Source: Streptomyces sp. NBC_00285 (GTDB lineage Bacteria > Actinomycetota > Actinomycetes > Streptomycetales > Streptomycetaceae). Taken from it: 64,000 nucleotides of DNA. Made by a program: the position numbers and the translations under genes. Below the pieces are notes generated by a model that had not been told where the DNA came from, did no database searches, and was given only the letters and a program-made list of their open reading frames with translations. This document shows, piece by piece, positions 27,253 through 32,438 of this stretch. The first letter of the stretch is position 1. The number at the start of each line of letters is the position of its first letter. Where the stretch lies: positions 124,001 to 188,000 of the forward strand of contig NZ_CP108055.1 in the NCBI RefSeq assembly GCF_036174265.1, given 5' to 3'.

Positions 27253-27340
27253 GTGAGCAGCGACAGCCATGGGGTCTGCCGCACGATCGGGTGACATCTG
27301 AACTGGCTTGCCCTGTGGGGCGGGTGGGAAGGATGTCGCT

Positions 27341-27649
27341 GTGCCCAAGCCTTATCCGGAGGAGTTCCGCCAGGACGTTGTGCGGGTCGCGAGGAACCGC
27401 GGTCCGGGTGTGACGGTCGAGCAGGTCGCCACCGACTTCGGAGTCCATCCGATGACGCTGTGGAAGTGGATGCGTCGCGCGGACATCGACGACGGAACCA
27501 AACCCGGAACTACCAGCCAGGAGAGCGCAGAGCTTCGGGAAGCGCGTCGACGGATCAAGCTGCTGGAGCAGGAGAACGAGGTTCTGCGGCGGGCCGCGGC
27601 CTATCTGTCACAGGCGCATCTGCCGGGAAAAGGATCTACCCGCTCGTGA
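27341..27649 (+). CDS. IS3 transposase OrfA
   Basis: A 102-residue DNA-binding protein starting at GTG 27341. PKPYPEEFRQDVVRVARNR and VATDFGVHPMTLWKWMRRAD form the IS3 helix-turn-helix; a leucine-zipper-like region (EARRRIKLLEQENEVLRRAA) follows. It overlaps orfB in the -1 frame, with a slippery A-tract at 27628-27631 through which an OrfAB fusion can be made. It is intact. Confidence 0.9.
   Translation: MPKPYPEEFRQDVVRVARNRGPGVTVEQVATDFGVHPMTLWKWMRRADIDDGTKPGTTSQESAELREARRRIKLLEQENEVLRRAAAYLSQAHLPGKGSTRS
27628..27633 (+). promoter_or_regulatory. Slippery sequence for -1 frameshifting between orfA and orfB
   Basis: GGAAAAGG is read GGA AAA in orfA. Slipping back one base after AAA continues AGG ATC TAC CCG in the orfB frame, giving PGK-RIYPLV. 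IS3 elements use such A-tracts to make the OrfAB transposase. Confidence 0.6.
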
Positions 27650-28327
27650 AGGAGCTGGCCGGGGACGGGGTGCCCGTCACGGTTGCGTGCCGGGTGCTGA
27701 AGCTCGCCAGACAGCCCTACTACCGCTGGCTGGACCAGCCGGTGACCGATGCCAAGCTGGAGGAGGCGTACCGCGCGAACGCGCTGTTCGACGCGCATCG
27801 TGACGACCCGGAGTTCGGCTACCGCTTCCTGGCCGACGAAGCGCGCGGCGCCGGGGCCGTGATGGCGGACCGGACCGCGTGGCGGATCTGCCGGGACAAC
27901 CGCTGGTGGAGCGTGTTCGGCAAGAAGCGCGGCAAGGCCAAGAAGGCCGGCCCGCCGGTGCACGACGACCTGGTCCGCCGTGACTTCACCGCGGATGGCC
28001 CGAACCGGCTGTGGCTCGCCGACATCACCGAACACGCCACCGGCGAAGGCAAGTTGTATCTCTGCGCGATCAAGGACGTCTTCAGCAAGAGGATCGTCGG
28101 CTACTCGATGGACACGCGGATGAAGTCCCGCCTGGCCGTCACAGCCCTCAACAACGCTGTCGCCCGGCGTGGACACGTCGACGGGTGCATTCTGCACAGC
28201 GATCGCGGGTCGCAGTTCCGGTCACGGAAGTTCGTCCGGGCGCTCGATCGTCAGCGGATCGTCGGCTCGATAGGGAGGGTCGGGGCGGCAGGCGACAAGC
28301 ACTTGTCATCACAGTGCTCCTCTTCTC

Positions 28328-30397
28328 CTATCGGGTTCGCTTTGAGGTCGTTGTTGCTGGTCGGCGGGGGTCGAGGCGTACGCCTTGCTGGACGCGGGGC
28401 GGGTTGGGTCCCGGCTGGGGGTAGAGGCATGCGTTCTTGTCGTTGTACTTCTCGCCCTCGAGCAGTCCGGCCCGGTGCCATTTCCAGACGGTGGGGACGC
28501 TGACGTCGAGGAGTTCGGCGAGTTCGTATGCGGTCAGCAGGCCGCGGTCCCGCAGTCGGTCGAAGCGGCTGGTGAGCTGGTAGTCCTGGCGGATGTCGCG
28601 GACCAGGAGCCGGTGGAAGGGCAGGCCCTTGCCGCTGGTCAGGCCGCGCTGGTTGAGGATGCCGGCGATCTCCGCGTCGGTGTGGTCCTCCAGGAGGGTG
28701 TCGATGGCTGCGACGACGGATTTCGGGGTCTGCCACAGTTTCCCGCCGCCGAGAGGCAAGGACAGGTCGAGGGTGTGGTGGCGGCCACCGGACAGCCGCA
28801 CGTGGGCGGTGATCTGCTCGGCCTTGGTGAGGGTGACGTCCGTGATCAGCAGGCGGGCGATGCGTTTGCGTTCCCGCATCGGGGTGTCGGGGTCGTGCCA
28901 GAGCCGGTGCACGTCACTGGCGAGGTGGGCCAGTTTCTCCCGCAGTGCCTCGTTGACGGGTTCGGCTTCAGTGCGGGCGCGTTCGATGCCCTTGCGGGCG
29001 GCAGCGACCTCGCGCAGGGCCGCGTTCCAGTCCGCTTCGAGGCTGTCGGCGACGAGACGGTTGTCCGGATCGACCGCGAGATAGCGTCGTTTGGCCAGGT
29101 CGGCGCGGTGCTGGGCGCGTTGGAGGTGGGCGGAACGCAGCCGGTCGGCCTCGGCGGCCTGGGCGGCGAGGCGGTCAGTGACGCGCAGGGCGGCCTCGAC
29201 AGCGAGCGGGGTCAGCTCGTCCAACAGCAGGGTGGCGACGGCCTGTTCGATGCCGGGGCCGGGGATGCGCTGGCAGACCGTGCCGCCGTTTTGGATGGCG
29301 TGGGTCATGCACCGGTAGTCGGAGACCTCGCGGCCTTGCCGCAGGTGATAAGCGATGGTCATGCGCCTGCCGCAGCGGCCGCAGATCACCAGGCCCTGCA
29401 GCAGCGCAGGCCCTTCCCGCGGTGCGGTTGCGGTCCGCTCGAGGCCGCGGGAGGCGGCCTGCGCGGCGAGTGCGGTCTGGTTCAACTCCCACCGGGCGAA
29501 GGTCACATAGCCCTCGTGATGGTCTTGGATGAGGGTGTCCCACTGCTCGCGCGGCAGCAGCCGGATGTGTGTCCTGCCGTCCGCACTGCGCTCGACCTTG
29601 CGCCGTCCGTAACAGAACGCCCCTGCATAGAGCGGGTTGTGGAGAACGTTGAGGACCTGCCAGTGCTTGAGCGGGCCCCAGACCAGCTCGCCCTTGCGAG
29701 GGCCGGTGCGGATACGCGAGGGGAAGGTGAGATGGCCGGCGGCGAAGGTCTTGACGACGCCGCGGGCCGAGCCGGTGGCCGCGAAGACCGTCAGGACGTG
29801 CTCGACGACGGCCCGCACCGAAGCGTCGGGGTCCTTGACGATCCGGTCGGCATAGTCGTGGACATAGCCGACCGGCAGGCCCTGCTTCAGTTCGCCGCGG
29901 CGGGCCTTGGCCAGCTGGCCGCCCCGCAACCGGGCTGCCAGCAGGTGGAGTTCGGCCTCCGACATGGTGCCCTTCATGCCCAGCACGAGCCGGTCGTTGA
30001 AGGTCCGCGGATCATACAGACCGTCCTCGTCCAGGATCAGCATCCCGGACAGCGCACAGATCTCCAAAAGCCGGTGCCAGTCGGTGTTGTTCCTGGCCAG
30101 GCGGGACACCTCCAGCCCGAGGACGATCCCGGCATGTCCCATGGAGACCTCGGCGACCAGGTACTGGAAGCCGTCCCGGCCCGCAGTCGATGCCCCTGAG
30201 CGGCCCTGATCGGAGTCGATCACGATGATCTGGGAGTCGGTCCAGCCCAGCGCGACGGCCCGGCCGCGCAGGGCGTACTGCCGCTGGGTGGACTCGCTGT
30301 TGTTGACGACCTGCTTGAGCGAGGACTGGCGCACATACAGATACGCGTCCCGCCGCAGATGCTCCACGGTGACCTTCCCGGTCTGCTCGATACTCAC
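28328..30397 (-). CDS. Large serine recombinase
   Basis: A 689-residue site-specific recombinase. The N-terminal resolvase domain has YVRQSS (residues 21-26, catalytic Ser25) and GLEVSRLARN. A recombinase domain covers about 165-280 and a zinc-ribbon CGRCGRRM...YRCMTH about 340-370. A long coiled-coil segment rich in Ala/Arg/Glu follows, and a C-terminal MerR-like helix-turn-helix (LTAYELAELLDVSVPTVWKW) lies near 625-645. It should integrate and excise the element at the CAA core. GTG 30397 has GAGGAGGG just upstream. Last gene of the element's operon, its stop 30 bp from the element end. Confidence 0.92.
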   Translation of the reverse strand: MSIEQTGKVTVEHLRRDAYLYVRQSSLKQVVNNSESTQRQYALRGRAVALGWTDSQIIVIDSDQGRSGASTAGRDGFQYLVAEVSMGHAGIVLGLEVSRLARNNTDWHRLLEICALSGMLILDEDGLYDPRTFNDRLVLGMKGTMSEAELHLLAARLRGGQLAKARRGELKQGLPVGYVHDYADRIVKDPDASVRAVVEHVLTVFAATGSARGVVKTFAAGHLTFPSRIRTGPRKGELVWGPLKHWQVLNVLHNPLYAGAFCYGRRKVERSADGRTHIRLLPREQWDTLIQDHHEGYVTFARWELNQTALAAQAASRGLERTATAPREGPALLQGLVICGRCGRRMTIAYHLRQGREVSDYRCMTHAIQNGGTVCQRIPGPGIEQAVATLLLDELTPLAVEAALRVTDRLAAQAAEADRLRSAHLQRAQHRADLAKRRYLAVDPDNRLVADSLEADWNAALREVAAARKGIERARTEAEPVNEALREKLAHLASDVHRLWHDPDTPMRERKRIARLLITDVTLTKAEQITAHVRLSGGRHHTLDLSLPLGGGKLWQTPKSVVAAIDTLLEDHTDAEIAGILNQRGLTSGKGLPFHRLLVRDIRQDYQLTSRFDRLRDRGLLTAYELAELLDVSVPTVWKWHRAGLLEGEKYNDKNACLYPQPGPNPPRVQQGVRLDPRRPATTTSKRTR

Positions 30398-30424
30398 CGC
30401 ACCCTCCTCGCCACGTCGTTGTGG

Positions 30425-30694
30425 TTATCCGCTGCGACAGCCTCCGGCCGCCGTCCATGCCATGAGTGCCAGCACGTCCACCAACTCCTCTGCCACCGCG
30501 AGCGGCTCGGGCGGCTGGTGCTGAACGGCCTTGGGCGGAAGGGGGATTCGGGTGACTGCCTTGATCCAGGCGGCCATGCCGGAGCGGGCCAGCACTGCCC
30601 AGCCATGTCGCGATCCTCGGTCGGGGCCGCCGAGGACCGCGGCCCGCAGGTCCTCATACCGGCGGGCCACCTCGGTCCCGTCCGCCGGGGACAC
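30425..30694 (-). CDS. Small conserved-looking ORF of the recombinase element
   Basis: 89 residues from GTG 30694, with GAGG about 4 nt upstream, placed 7 bp after the helix-turn-helix gene and 27 bp before the recombinase. It contains GWAVLARSGMAAWIKAVTRI near the middle and a C-terminal helical segment EPLAVAEELVDVLALMAWTA. I do not recognise the family. Tight spacing argues that it is real and belongs to the mobility module, perhaps as a recombination directionality factor; that role is only a guess. Confidence 0.5.
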   Translation of the reverse strand: MSPADGTEVARRYEDLRAAVLGGPDRGSRHGWAVLARSGMAAWIKAVTRIPLPPKAVQHQPPEPLAVAEELVDVLALMAWTAAGGCRSG

Positions 30695-30701
30695 TGCCTC
30701 G

Positions 30702-31181
30702 TCAGCAGTGGTGGGCTTCCTCCGCAGTGCGCGGTTCGCGCCGCCTGGCCAGGGCTTTCTCCACCGACCGCGGGTGAACGGTGATCCCGAACCGCCTCTG
30801 GACCGCGTCCGCCAGCCGGACCGGCCGCAGGGACGCATCGCCGGCCCGGAGCTGTTCGACGAACTCCATGACCTCCTCGGTGAGCTTGCGCGGCCCCTTC
30901 GGGCCGGGCTTGCCCGGCACCAGCGCGGCCGGCCCGCCCGCGTCCAGCGCGGCCGCGATCACATAAAAGCTCTGCCGGCAGAACCCGAAAGCCGCCGCAG
31001 CACGCGCGACGGGCACCTTGTCCACCCTCACCCGGCGCACCATCTCGTACTTGACCTGCACCACATCGTCCGGATCCAGGAACGGACACAACGCGAAGTC
31101 CTCGTCGGTCACCGCGTCGGGCCGCGGATTGAGTGCCCGGGACTCCTTCAGCGCCGCCTTCTTGCCCGTCTGCCGGCTCAT
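30702..31181 (-). CDS. Helix-turn-helix protein of the recombinase element
   Basis: 159 residues. RVRVDKVPVARAAAAFGFCR followed by QSFYVIAAALDAGG is a transposase-type helix-turn-helix near residues 50-80, and a second winged-helix-like part (PVRLADAVQRRFGITVHPRS) lies near 120-140. It resembles the N-terminal DNA-binding half of IS481/IS630 transposases without a catalytic DDE domain. In this operon it more likely regulates or directs the recombinase than transposes DNA. Confidence 0.75.
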   Translation of the reverse strand: MSRQTGKKAALKESRALNPRPDAVTDEDFALCPFLDPDDVVQVKYEMVRRVRVDKVPVARAAAAFGFCRQSFYVIAAALDAGGPAALVPGKPGPKGPRKLTEEVMEFVEQLRAGDASLRPVRLADAVQRRFGITVHPRSVEKALARRREPRTAEEAHHC

Positions 31182-31355
31182 CGCGCCTCCCCGTCGATCC
31201 CGATGTCACCAGGATCAGACCGCTCGTCCCACAAGCCAAGAGCGCAAAGGCCGAGCAGAAGAGCGAAAGAAGCAGGTCACGGACTCGCTTCAGCGTCCGC
31301 GCGCCCCCCACAGCCTCCGCGAGCGCCCCCGGCAGCGGCCTCAATGCGACGACGA

Positions 31356-31634
31356 TCACGGCGTCATCTCCCCGACACCGTGCCGGCTGCCGGACAGCAA
31401 TCCGGCCACCAGATCCGCCAACTCGACCAGATCCCCGGTCCGATACGGACAACCCTCACCGGCCGCCGCGACGAACGCGTCCACCAGCGCCATATCGGTC
31501 CACTCCAGTGGGAACGAGCACCTGCGACCCTGCCCATCGAGGACCAACACCACATCTCCACGCCACGAGTTGAGCCGCTCGAGAAACTCGAAAGCCTCAC
31601 CGCACCGGGGATGGAACGGATGAATCAGCCGCAC
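31356..31634 (-). CDS. DUF5372-like protein of the recombinase element
   Basis: 92 residues starting at GTG 31634, 46 bp inside the element's right end. The start MRLIHPFHPRCGEAFEFLER matches the DUF5372 group as I recall it, short proteins often found beside IS/recombinase helix-turn-helix genes and related to a phage- or transposon-associated beta-barrel domain. First gene of the element's operon; 174 bp separate it from the next gene. Function unknown. Confidence 0.65.
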   Translation of the reverse strand: MRLIHPFHPRCGEAFEFLERLNSWRGDVVLVLDGQGRRCSFPLEWTDMALVDAFVAAAGEGCPYRTGDLVELADLVAGLLSGSRHGVGEMTP

Positions 31635-32438
31635 ACGTCCATCGTCATCGCGGGGAACGGGCGCATTCGACGGTGAATGCCAACGCGGCCATGGAGTCCT
31701 TCTTCAGCCTGCTGCAGAAGAACGTCCTCGACCGTCGATCGTGGGCCACCCGCGAGGAACTGCGGATCGCGATCGTGACATGGATCGAGAGGACCTACCA
31801 CCGGCGCCGCAGACAAGCCTCGCTCGGCCGGCTGACCCCCGTTGAATTCGAGAGCGTCATGACCACACCGGCCCTCCAGGCCGCGTGACCGAACCTGTCA
31901 CCCAAAGCTGCACCAGACCCATGGAGTCGGGAAGGCCGAGGTACGGATCAAATGGGACCCGAGTCTCTGGGATCGGCCACCCCATCATCTCGACATCATC
32001 GCCGCCACCTACTCGGCGGACGCCCCCTTCGGGCGGCCGGTGTACGTCGTCCACTTCGACAGCCGCTCACCGGACGGCACCATCAACATGAGCCGGCACA
32101 GCCAGACCGGCCAGGGCTTCGGCTACGTCGAAGCGATGACCCTGGAGCTCGATCGCCTCGCTTCCTCCTTCGCTCGGGTGGTGGTGGGTGTGGCGATCCA
32201 CCAGAACAGCGGCCCCAAAACCTTCGGCGACCTGTCGAACGCCGGAGTTCTGGTCGTCGAGGGGTACAGGGAGCTACTGAAGGACGACTTCGCACAGCTC
32301 TCCGAATACACCGCCGCGACGGTCGCGGAGTTCACCAGGGACGCCTCCGGAACGTGGGAGTACCGCGAGATGGTCCGAGGATTCGACAGCGACCCCGTGA
32401 TCTTCACCGCCGAGATGGGCAGCACCCCACAGCCCTGA

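Follow-up and report, generated by a model that had tools for sequence, protein, structure and literature searches.

The window analysed here, a 64,000-nucleotide stretch at 124-188 kb of the 10.3-Mb, two-contig genome of Streptomyces sp. NBC_00285, contains an insertion sequence (IS) of the IS3 family whose transposase gene, orfB, is interrupted by a small element encoding a large serine recombinase. The element's four genes, for the recombinase, a short protein, a helix-turn-helix (HTH) protein and a DUF5372 protein, all lie on the minus strand, and the identical gene order is annotated in plasmid pNGR234a. The domains of the recombinase are those of an ordinary member of the large serine recombinases, with Resolvase (PF00239), Recombinase (PF07508) and Zn_ribbon_recom (PF13408) each matched above the Pfam cut-off.

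The interrupted transposase gene

The open reading frames (ORFs) and junctions stand where a preliminary description of this DNA had put them, as judged from the ORF list and the sequence, while the extent of the element, first given as 28296..31683, is refined to 28299-31683 (3,385 bp). That description had also taken CAA, which is indeed present at both junctions, as the shared core; in relatives the shared part is AA alone (TT when read on the strand of the recombinase). Locus L017 excludes CAA as crossover core: its target is GATAAC, and the third base is not the same at its two junctions, which restricts the overlap to two bases. Both element ends thus carry a two-base AA/TT overlap, a longer target duplication being absent, and AA opens an Asn or Lys codon, with the catalytic Glu of the transposase following four residues later. 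The TGC-CAA-GCA dyad, formerly read as the element's own attachment site (attP), forms the centre of a putative attP and is no proof by itself. Calling junction pairs automatically from open frames alone proved too permissive and was dropped.

Both halves of orfB match the NCBIfam IS3-family transposase model, whose 369 profile positions are divided at position 313; the score of the C half, 59.5 against a cut-off of 160, is what a fragment would give. The joined flanks form an uninterrupted frame, such that excision would restore orfB, as had been proposed. Used as a query, the joined orfB retrieves orfB relatives at up to 93% identity and, among 199 Streptomyces genomes, finds a match at E<=1e-100 in 23, a number that includes the window's own interrupted copy. 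Element-free alleles exist: all 12 uninterrupted relatives that were fetched align gap-free across the predicted empty site.

The insertion parts the catalytic Glu from the Asp residues, another point on which the preliminary description holds; within the D-(35 residues)-E arrangement, the break falls after the second Asp and before the Glu. This spacing is exact in 8 of the 13 IS3 hosts listed; the remaining 5 (right flanks of L010, L011, L014, L112 and L115) have no in-frame second-Asp motif, suggesting from their sequence a decay that followed insertion. Because of these five hosts, some insertions look permanent. That the element silences its host transposase until it leaves is a plausible reading of the arrangement.

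Target genes and the target codon

A scan of contigs from 84,980 genomes returned 80 loci with recombinases related to that of the window. We built an IS3 orfB profile, against which the N-halves end and the C-halves start at one model position beside the element, and with this profile and the translated junctions we found IS3 orfB hit at the same codon in 16 loci including the window. The 15 further loci are L010-L018, L024, L025, L033, L111, L112 and L115, some of them one-sided; the C-halves of L011 and L033, and L112, were assigned from translated sequence, and two shortened copies (L044 and L118, 86%) with no usable end were left out. The preliminary description had proposed an IS3 transposase gene as the target site (attB), with many possible sites, and had pointed to the flanks of recombinase relatives; both points are supported, with 14 of the 16 loci forming one recombinase clade (support 100) in which the shortened copy L044 is the only other row. 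L024 and L025 reach IS3 from other parts of the recombinase tree. One single IS3 type as attB is excluded, since the IS3 targets are divergent.

Several genomes carry closely matching copies. Streptomyces sp. NBC_00154 has two elements that are 99.97% identical (3393 of 3394 columns) in unrelated IS3 genes, with flanks only 32-39% identical; S. turgidiscabies Car8 has three copies, identical over 3418 bp, in three genes; and NBC_01669 has two copies at 99.8% in different IS3s. In the window's own genome, a 123-bp left-end relic (L102, C1:214300 region, 1670-1792) is 100% identical to the window copy, and its host is the C-half of a second IS3 orfB. Near-identical elements in unrelated IS3 genes show recent movement between targets, rather than descent with one IS.

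The proposal of IS3 as attB is upheld, with IS3 as one example in a family whose members strike conserved motifs in many kinds of mobile-element gene. A Pfam scan of the flanks of 48 loci found mobile-element families at 38: rve, DDE_Tnp_1, DDE_3, DDE_Tnp_ISL3, DDE_Tnp_IS66, TnpB_IS66, IstB_IS21, Mu-transpos_C_2, Phage_integrase and RVT_1. Seven of the 38 (L114, L023, L028, L031, L048, L036 and L054) rest on rve matches below the Pfam cut-off (E<=0.001); the rve match of L030 is also below it, with a strong IstB match alongside, and in L020 the other half matches Mu-transpos_C_2. In the wider family the catalytic-Glu codons of IS481-like, IS21, ISL3 and Mu-like transposases are hit, and the targets of distant relatives are IstB, IS66, tyrosine recombinases and reverse transcriptases. 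Matches in these distant loci stop at characteristic profile positions, at 99-101 of 238 for IstB, before the P-loop, at 277-281 of 284 for IS66, at 148-151 of 172 for Phage_integrase and at 78 of 205 for RVT_1.

On the recombinase tree, a quick tree with a long-branch warning, the target labels require 28 changes against a shuffled mean of 69.7, so that targets group by clade. These labels were assigned partly by eye, with Pfam run on 5 of the 17 IstB rows, 3 of the 7 tyrosine-recombinase rows, 4 of the 8 IS66 TnpC rows and 4 of the 7 reverse-transcriptase rows. Homologues at unrelated attachment sites do occur, but only for more distant recombinases whose targets have switched.

The family extends across actinobacteria, proteobacteria, acidobacteria and other phyla, and the window's own genome has a second member (L002, C1:9952591-9954438), 39% identical and beside a DDE_Tnp_1 domain. 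In pNGR234a (L139, junctions near 2960 and 6280) the element lies, by eye, in a transposase gene reading K-G-R-V-E, which is presumably of ISNCY type. A viral-collection contig (L090) carries a family member whose target is not an obvious transposase and whose frame across attP is open.

The target codon was examined in a set of 20 attB sites with both flanks, their ends placed by fixed landmarks. TC stands at -12/-11 in all 20, compared with 194 of 2557 TT positions in the window (7.6%); TT itself is partly built into the placement rule and so is not evidence, whereas the rule ignores -12/-11. The sites are diverse, 19 of the 20 being <75% identical over 80 bp. TC at -12/-11 complements the two bases with which the Glu codon begins. 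At the protein level, all 19 sites that can be read have Glu at +4 from the split Asn/Lys codon; of 31 loci listed, the other 12 lack a readable left flank. The target peptides are NAAMES, NALAES and NPYSES in IS3, NGTVER in an IS481-like gene (L019), NAFAER in an integrase with HTH_21 (L048), KPRVER, KAKVEV, NGAIES and KGGVEG in IS21-type genes, KGTIEK in a Mu-like gene (L114) and NARVES in ISL3 (L003). The recombinase probably reads a DNA word common to these genes, which they would share because each encodes the catalytic helix. An off-target in a GH65-type gene (L045) reads K-x-x-x-E and also has TC at -12/-11. Residues about 619-659 of the recombinase give a weak HTH_17/MerR-like match, unusual in a serine integrase; this C-terminal HTH may contribute to target choice.

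The DUF5372 gene and the element ends

The element end next to the recombinase gene has a purine-rich stretch followed by a start codon (ATG; TTG in some relatives) that opens into the target gene, 11 or 14 bases before the crossover. Joined across the circle junction, the window's start reads MTSAWHSPSNAPVPRDDDGRVRLIHPFHP. All 23 of the closer loci that were placed (17 distinct elements) have this start in the reading frame of DUF5372 once the ends are joined, at distances of 57, 60, 63, 66 or 69 bases, all multiples of three (the 56 printed for L014 is a shift of the profile anchor, and its translation is open). The same holds for 24 of 24 placed loci in the distant group, at 48, 51, 54 or 57 bases. 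The DUF5372 frame is continuous over attP and broken at attL and attR, the junctions of the integrated element. Integration strips the ribosome-binding site and start from DUF5372, because both sit at the opposite element end. Full-length DUF5372 would on this arrangement act in the circle stage and be turned off by integration. An AlphaFold model of the protein is of modest confidence (mean pLDDT 79, pTM 0.51) and has no match in the PDB at E<=0.001, and for both reasons its fold does not give a function.

Table 1. Features of the interrupted IS3 and the inserted element (window coordinates)
Feature	Position	Strand	Evidence
Putative left terminal inverted repeat, host IS3	27267..27296	+	Imperfect match to 31896-31924, local alignment of chosen stretches; weak
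orfA, host IS3	27308..27649	+	Pfam HTH_Tnp_1, NCBIfam transpos_IS3
orfB N-terminal part, both catalytic Asp	27646..28298	+	Pfam rve 8.8e-21, NCBIfam transpos_IS3 1.3e-49
Overlap dinucleotide AA, orfB N-half side	28297..28298	.	Junctions compared across relatives
Inserted element, 3,385 bp	28299..31683	-	Boundaries common to L010, L011, L017 (blastn)
DUF5372 start codon and first codons	28299..28309 (ATG 28309-28307)	-	In frame with DUF5372 across circle junction
AGGAG, ribosome-binding-site-like, upstream of DUF5372 ATG	28317..28321	-	Sequence; purine-rich counterpart in relatives
Large serine recombinase, 689 aa, weak C-terminal HTH	28328..30397	-	Pfam; PHROG integrase
Small ORF, 89 aa, without family match	30425..30694	-	Position of the 89-aa ORF annotated 'transposase' in pNGR234a
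HTH protein, 159 aa	30702..31181	-	Pfam HTH_28, HTH_29 (HTH_32 also matched)
DUF5372 gene body	31356..31683 (annotation-style start 31634)	-	Pfam DUF5372 1.5e-23
Overlap dinucleotide AA, orfB C-half side	31682..31683	.	Junctions compared across relatives
orfB C-terminal part, catalytic Glu (NAAME)	31684..31888	+	Pfam rve_2, rve_3; D-35-E spacing
Putative right terminal inverted repeat, host IS3	31896..31924	-	Same local alignment; weak

A TerD-domain fragment (window 32040-32438) directly adjoins the host IS3.

Mechanism, alternatives and known systems

We consider it likely, with good confidence, that the element is an autonomous transposon of small size, moved by its serine recombinase and parasitic on other mobile elements, with attB in catalytic-Glu codons and attP inside DUF5372. 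The recombinase would join circular attP to an attB formed by the codons preceding the catalytic Glu of DDE transposases, here in IS3 orfB, where GA[C AA]C GC.. encodes D-N-A-x-x-E and the crossover would fall at AA/TT. The target gene is split between the second Asp and the Glu, and excision would restore it without a scar; attP lies four to five codons past the DUF5372 start, with integration separating the two parts of that gene and circularisation rejoining them. A life cycle would then lead from a circle with an intact DUF5372 operon, through integration into a resident transposase gene and loss of DUF5372 expression, to a long stay in the dead gene with occasional excision, and passenger movement within the IS may add to spread. 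The recombination directions of serine integrases, and their need of a directionality factor, are established in the literature.

A broader reading, towards which we lean only slightly, is that of a dedicated parasite class, in which successive clades would have drawn their attB from the stretches coding for active-site motifs (DDE catalytic Glu, IstB P-loop, IS66, tyrosine-recombinase LGH and reverse transcriptase). Every moving IS would be both vector and target, DUF5372 split by attP would be a sensor that is on only in the circle, with integration as its own off switch, and transposases would be curbed throughout the bacteria.

The comparisons establish the insertion site, its codon precision, the scarless join, the spread between different IS3 genes and the in-frame attP; recombinase activity, the circle, excision and the role of DUF5372 are inferred. 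Several observations weigh against the proposed transposon. Two of the 48 scanned loci have non-mobile targets (L045 in the GH65-type gene and L117 in a PGA_cap gene), eight more (L026, L037, L042, L043, L112, L116, L120 and L125) have no clear mobile-element domain, and the right flank of L033 is not IS3. A sigma-70 scan of the element found no promoter-like site. The overlap is mismatched by one base between the junctions of L029 and of IstB-type loci (L065, L068 and L075), as if mismatched overlaps were tolerated. The placement of ends has its own difficulties: the first left-end rule put ends wrongly and gave out-of-frame joins until it was tightened, which moved the ends of L020, L021, L113, L026, L029, L031, L003 and others; 11 of the 35 distant loci examined were not placeable; placement is unsettled for L040 and L043, and the left end of L032 looks degraded. 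The agreement in frame across relatives is also not independent.

Alternatively, the integrated element could produce DUF5372 from a start codon within the gene body, the in-frame extension over attP being accidental. Its Pfam family begins at the HPFHP motif, a GTG is present at 31634 and public records annotate the gene as an ordinary coding sequence; nevertheless, this appears unlikely given nine length observations (eight distinct) that are all multiples of three in the placed loci (23/23 and 24/24), and a ribosome-binding-site-like sequence that precedes the start codon. A further alternative concerns movement: the element could travel mainly with its host IS3, by transposase supplied in trans, serine-recombinase integration being rare. 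Streptomyces sp. NBC_01669 does carry IS and element together as a 5,067-bp block at two places, 99.98% identical; this block (L013/L018, 6234-11300) ends near matching CTGTCAAAG inverted repeats, and an IS may take its parasite along. Such passage cannot account for NBC_01669 and NBC_00154, where near-identical elements lie in different IS3 genes and their flanks are unrelated, and as the main route we judge it decidedly unlikely, although the two routes may coexist.

Survivorship is the least probable of the alternatives. Here integration would occur at many AA/TT sites, with insertions kept only in dispensable genes such as those for transposases. The two non-mobile targets indicate that the enzyme is not absolutely specific, and relaxed-specificity serine recombinases with TT cores are known (accessible text of PMC10083194), but selection on dispensability leaves the same-codon hits unexplained (Glu at +4 in 19 of 19), and the GH65 off-target shares the TC at -12/-11, as if that DNA word were read.

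If the proposed transposon is real, it represents a widespread group that has made other mobile DNA its niche, and its recombinases are natural enzymes that target a conserved protein motif encoded in DNA, offering a simple test bed for target change in serine integrases. Such elements might slow IS activity, and they would provide a compact gene switch controlled by integration. DUF5372, a Pfam family without known function, would have its start codon corrected and gain a role that can be tested.

Among known systems, large serine recombinases such as phiC31, Bxb1, SPbeta YokA and the TnpX/TndX type have the same Resolvase, Recombinase and zinc-ribbon domains, and SPbeta YokA and a YokA-YotN fusion are among the solved chains nearest to our recombinase. 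A temperate phage can be rejected, the four small genes having an integrase family as their sole phage-type Pfam/PHROG hit; in phage records the best matches are <60% identical and none covers 80%. The serine integrase of phiRv1 also uses a repeated element as attB, the REP13E12 repeats of Mycobacterium tuberculosis; phiRv1 is phage-like and uses one repeat type, whereas the present element uses the homologous codon of many transposase families. Inteins, homing introns and group II introns in IS elements likewise insert in conserved active-site codons, where targets are always available, but their removal by splicing, at the protein or RNA level, keeps the host gene working, while the present element is DNA and breaks it. 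In the fdxN element, a serine-recombinase (XisF) element lies inside a gene that excision restores; our recombinase scores 97.8 bits against the XisF equivalog (NF041201), below its cut-off of 375, and the window element, unlike fdxN, is not developmental as far as is known.

The TT core resembles that of a multi-targeting integrase described in the available part of PMC10083194. There DUF4368 is given for 63% of the multi-targeting clade; in our recombinase it is absent from Pfam hits at E<=0.001. The main text of that paper, as far as accessible, discusses target genes and multi-targeting without 'insertion sequence', 'IS3' or 'DUF5372'. In the integration-dependent immunity of mycobacteriophages, attP lies within the repressor gene (PMC9262239, accessible portion), and as in our element an attP inside the element's own gene lets integration alter the product. 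From the same portion of that source, the repressor loses its 3' end through a tyrosine integrase acting at a tRNA gene, whereas DUF5372 loses its 5' start through a serine recombinase. In the open-access literature, with subscription papers and preprints outside the search, we found no description of a family combining active-site attB with an attP-split accessory gene, and 'DUF5372' was absent from the open-access literature searched. What separates the element from known large serine recombinases is its choice of targets, the catalytic codons of mobile-element genes.

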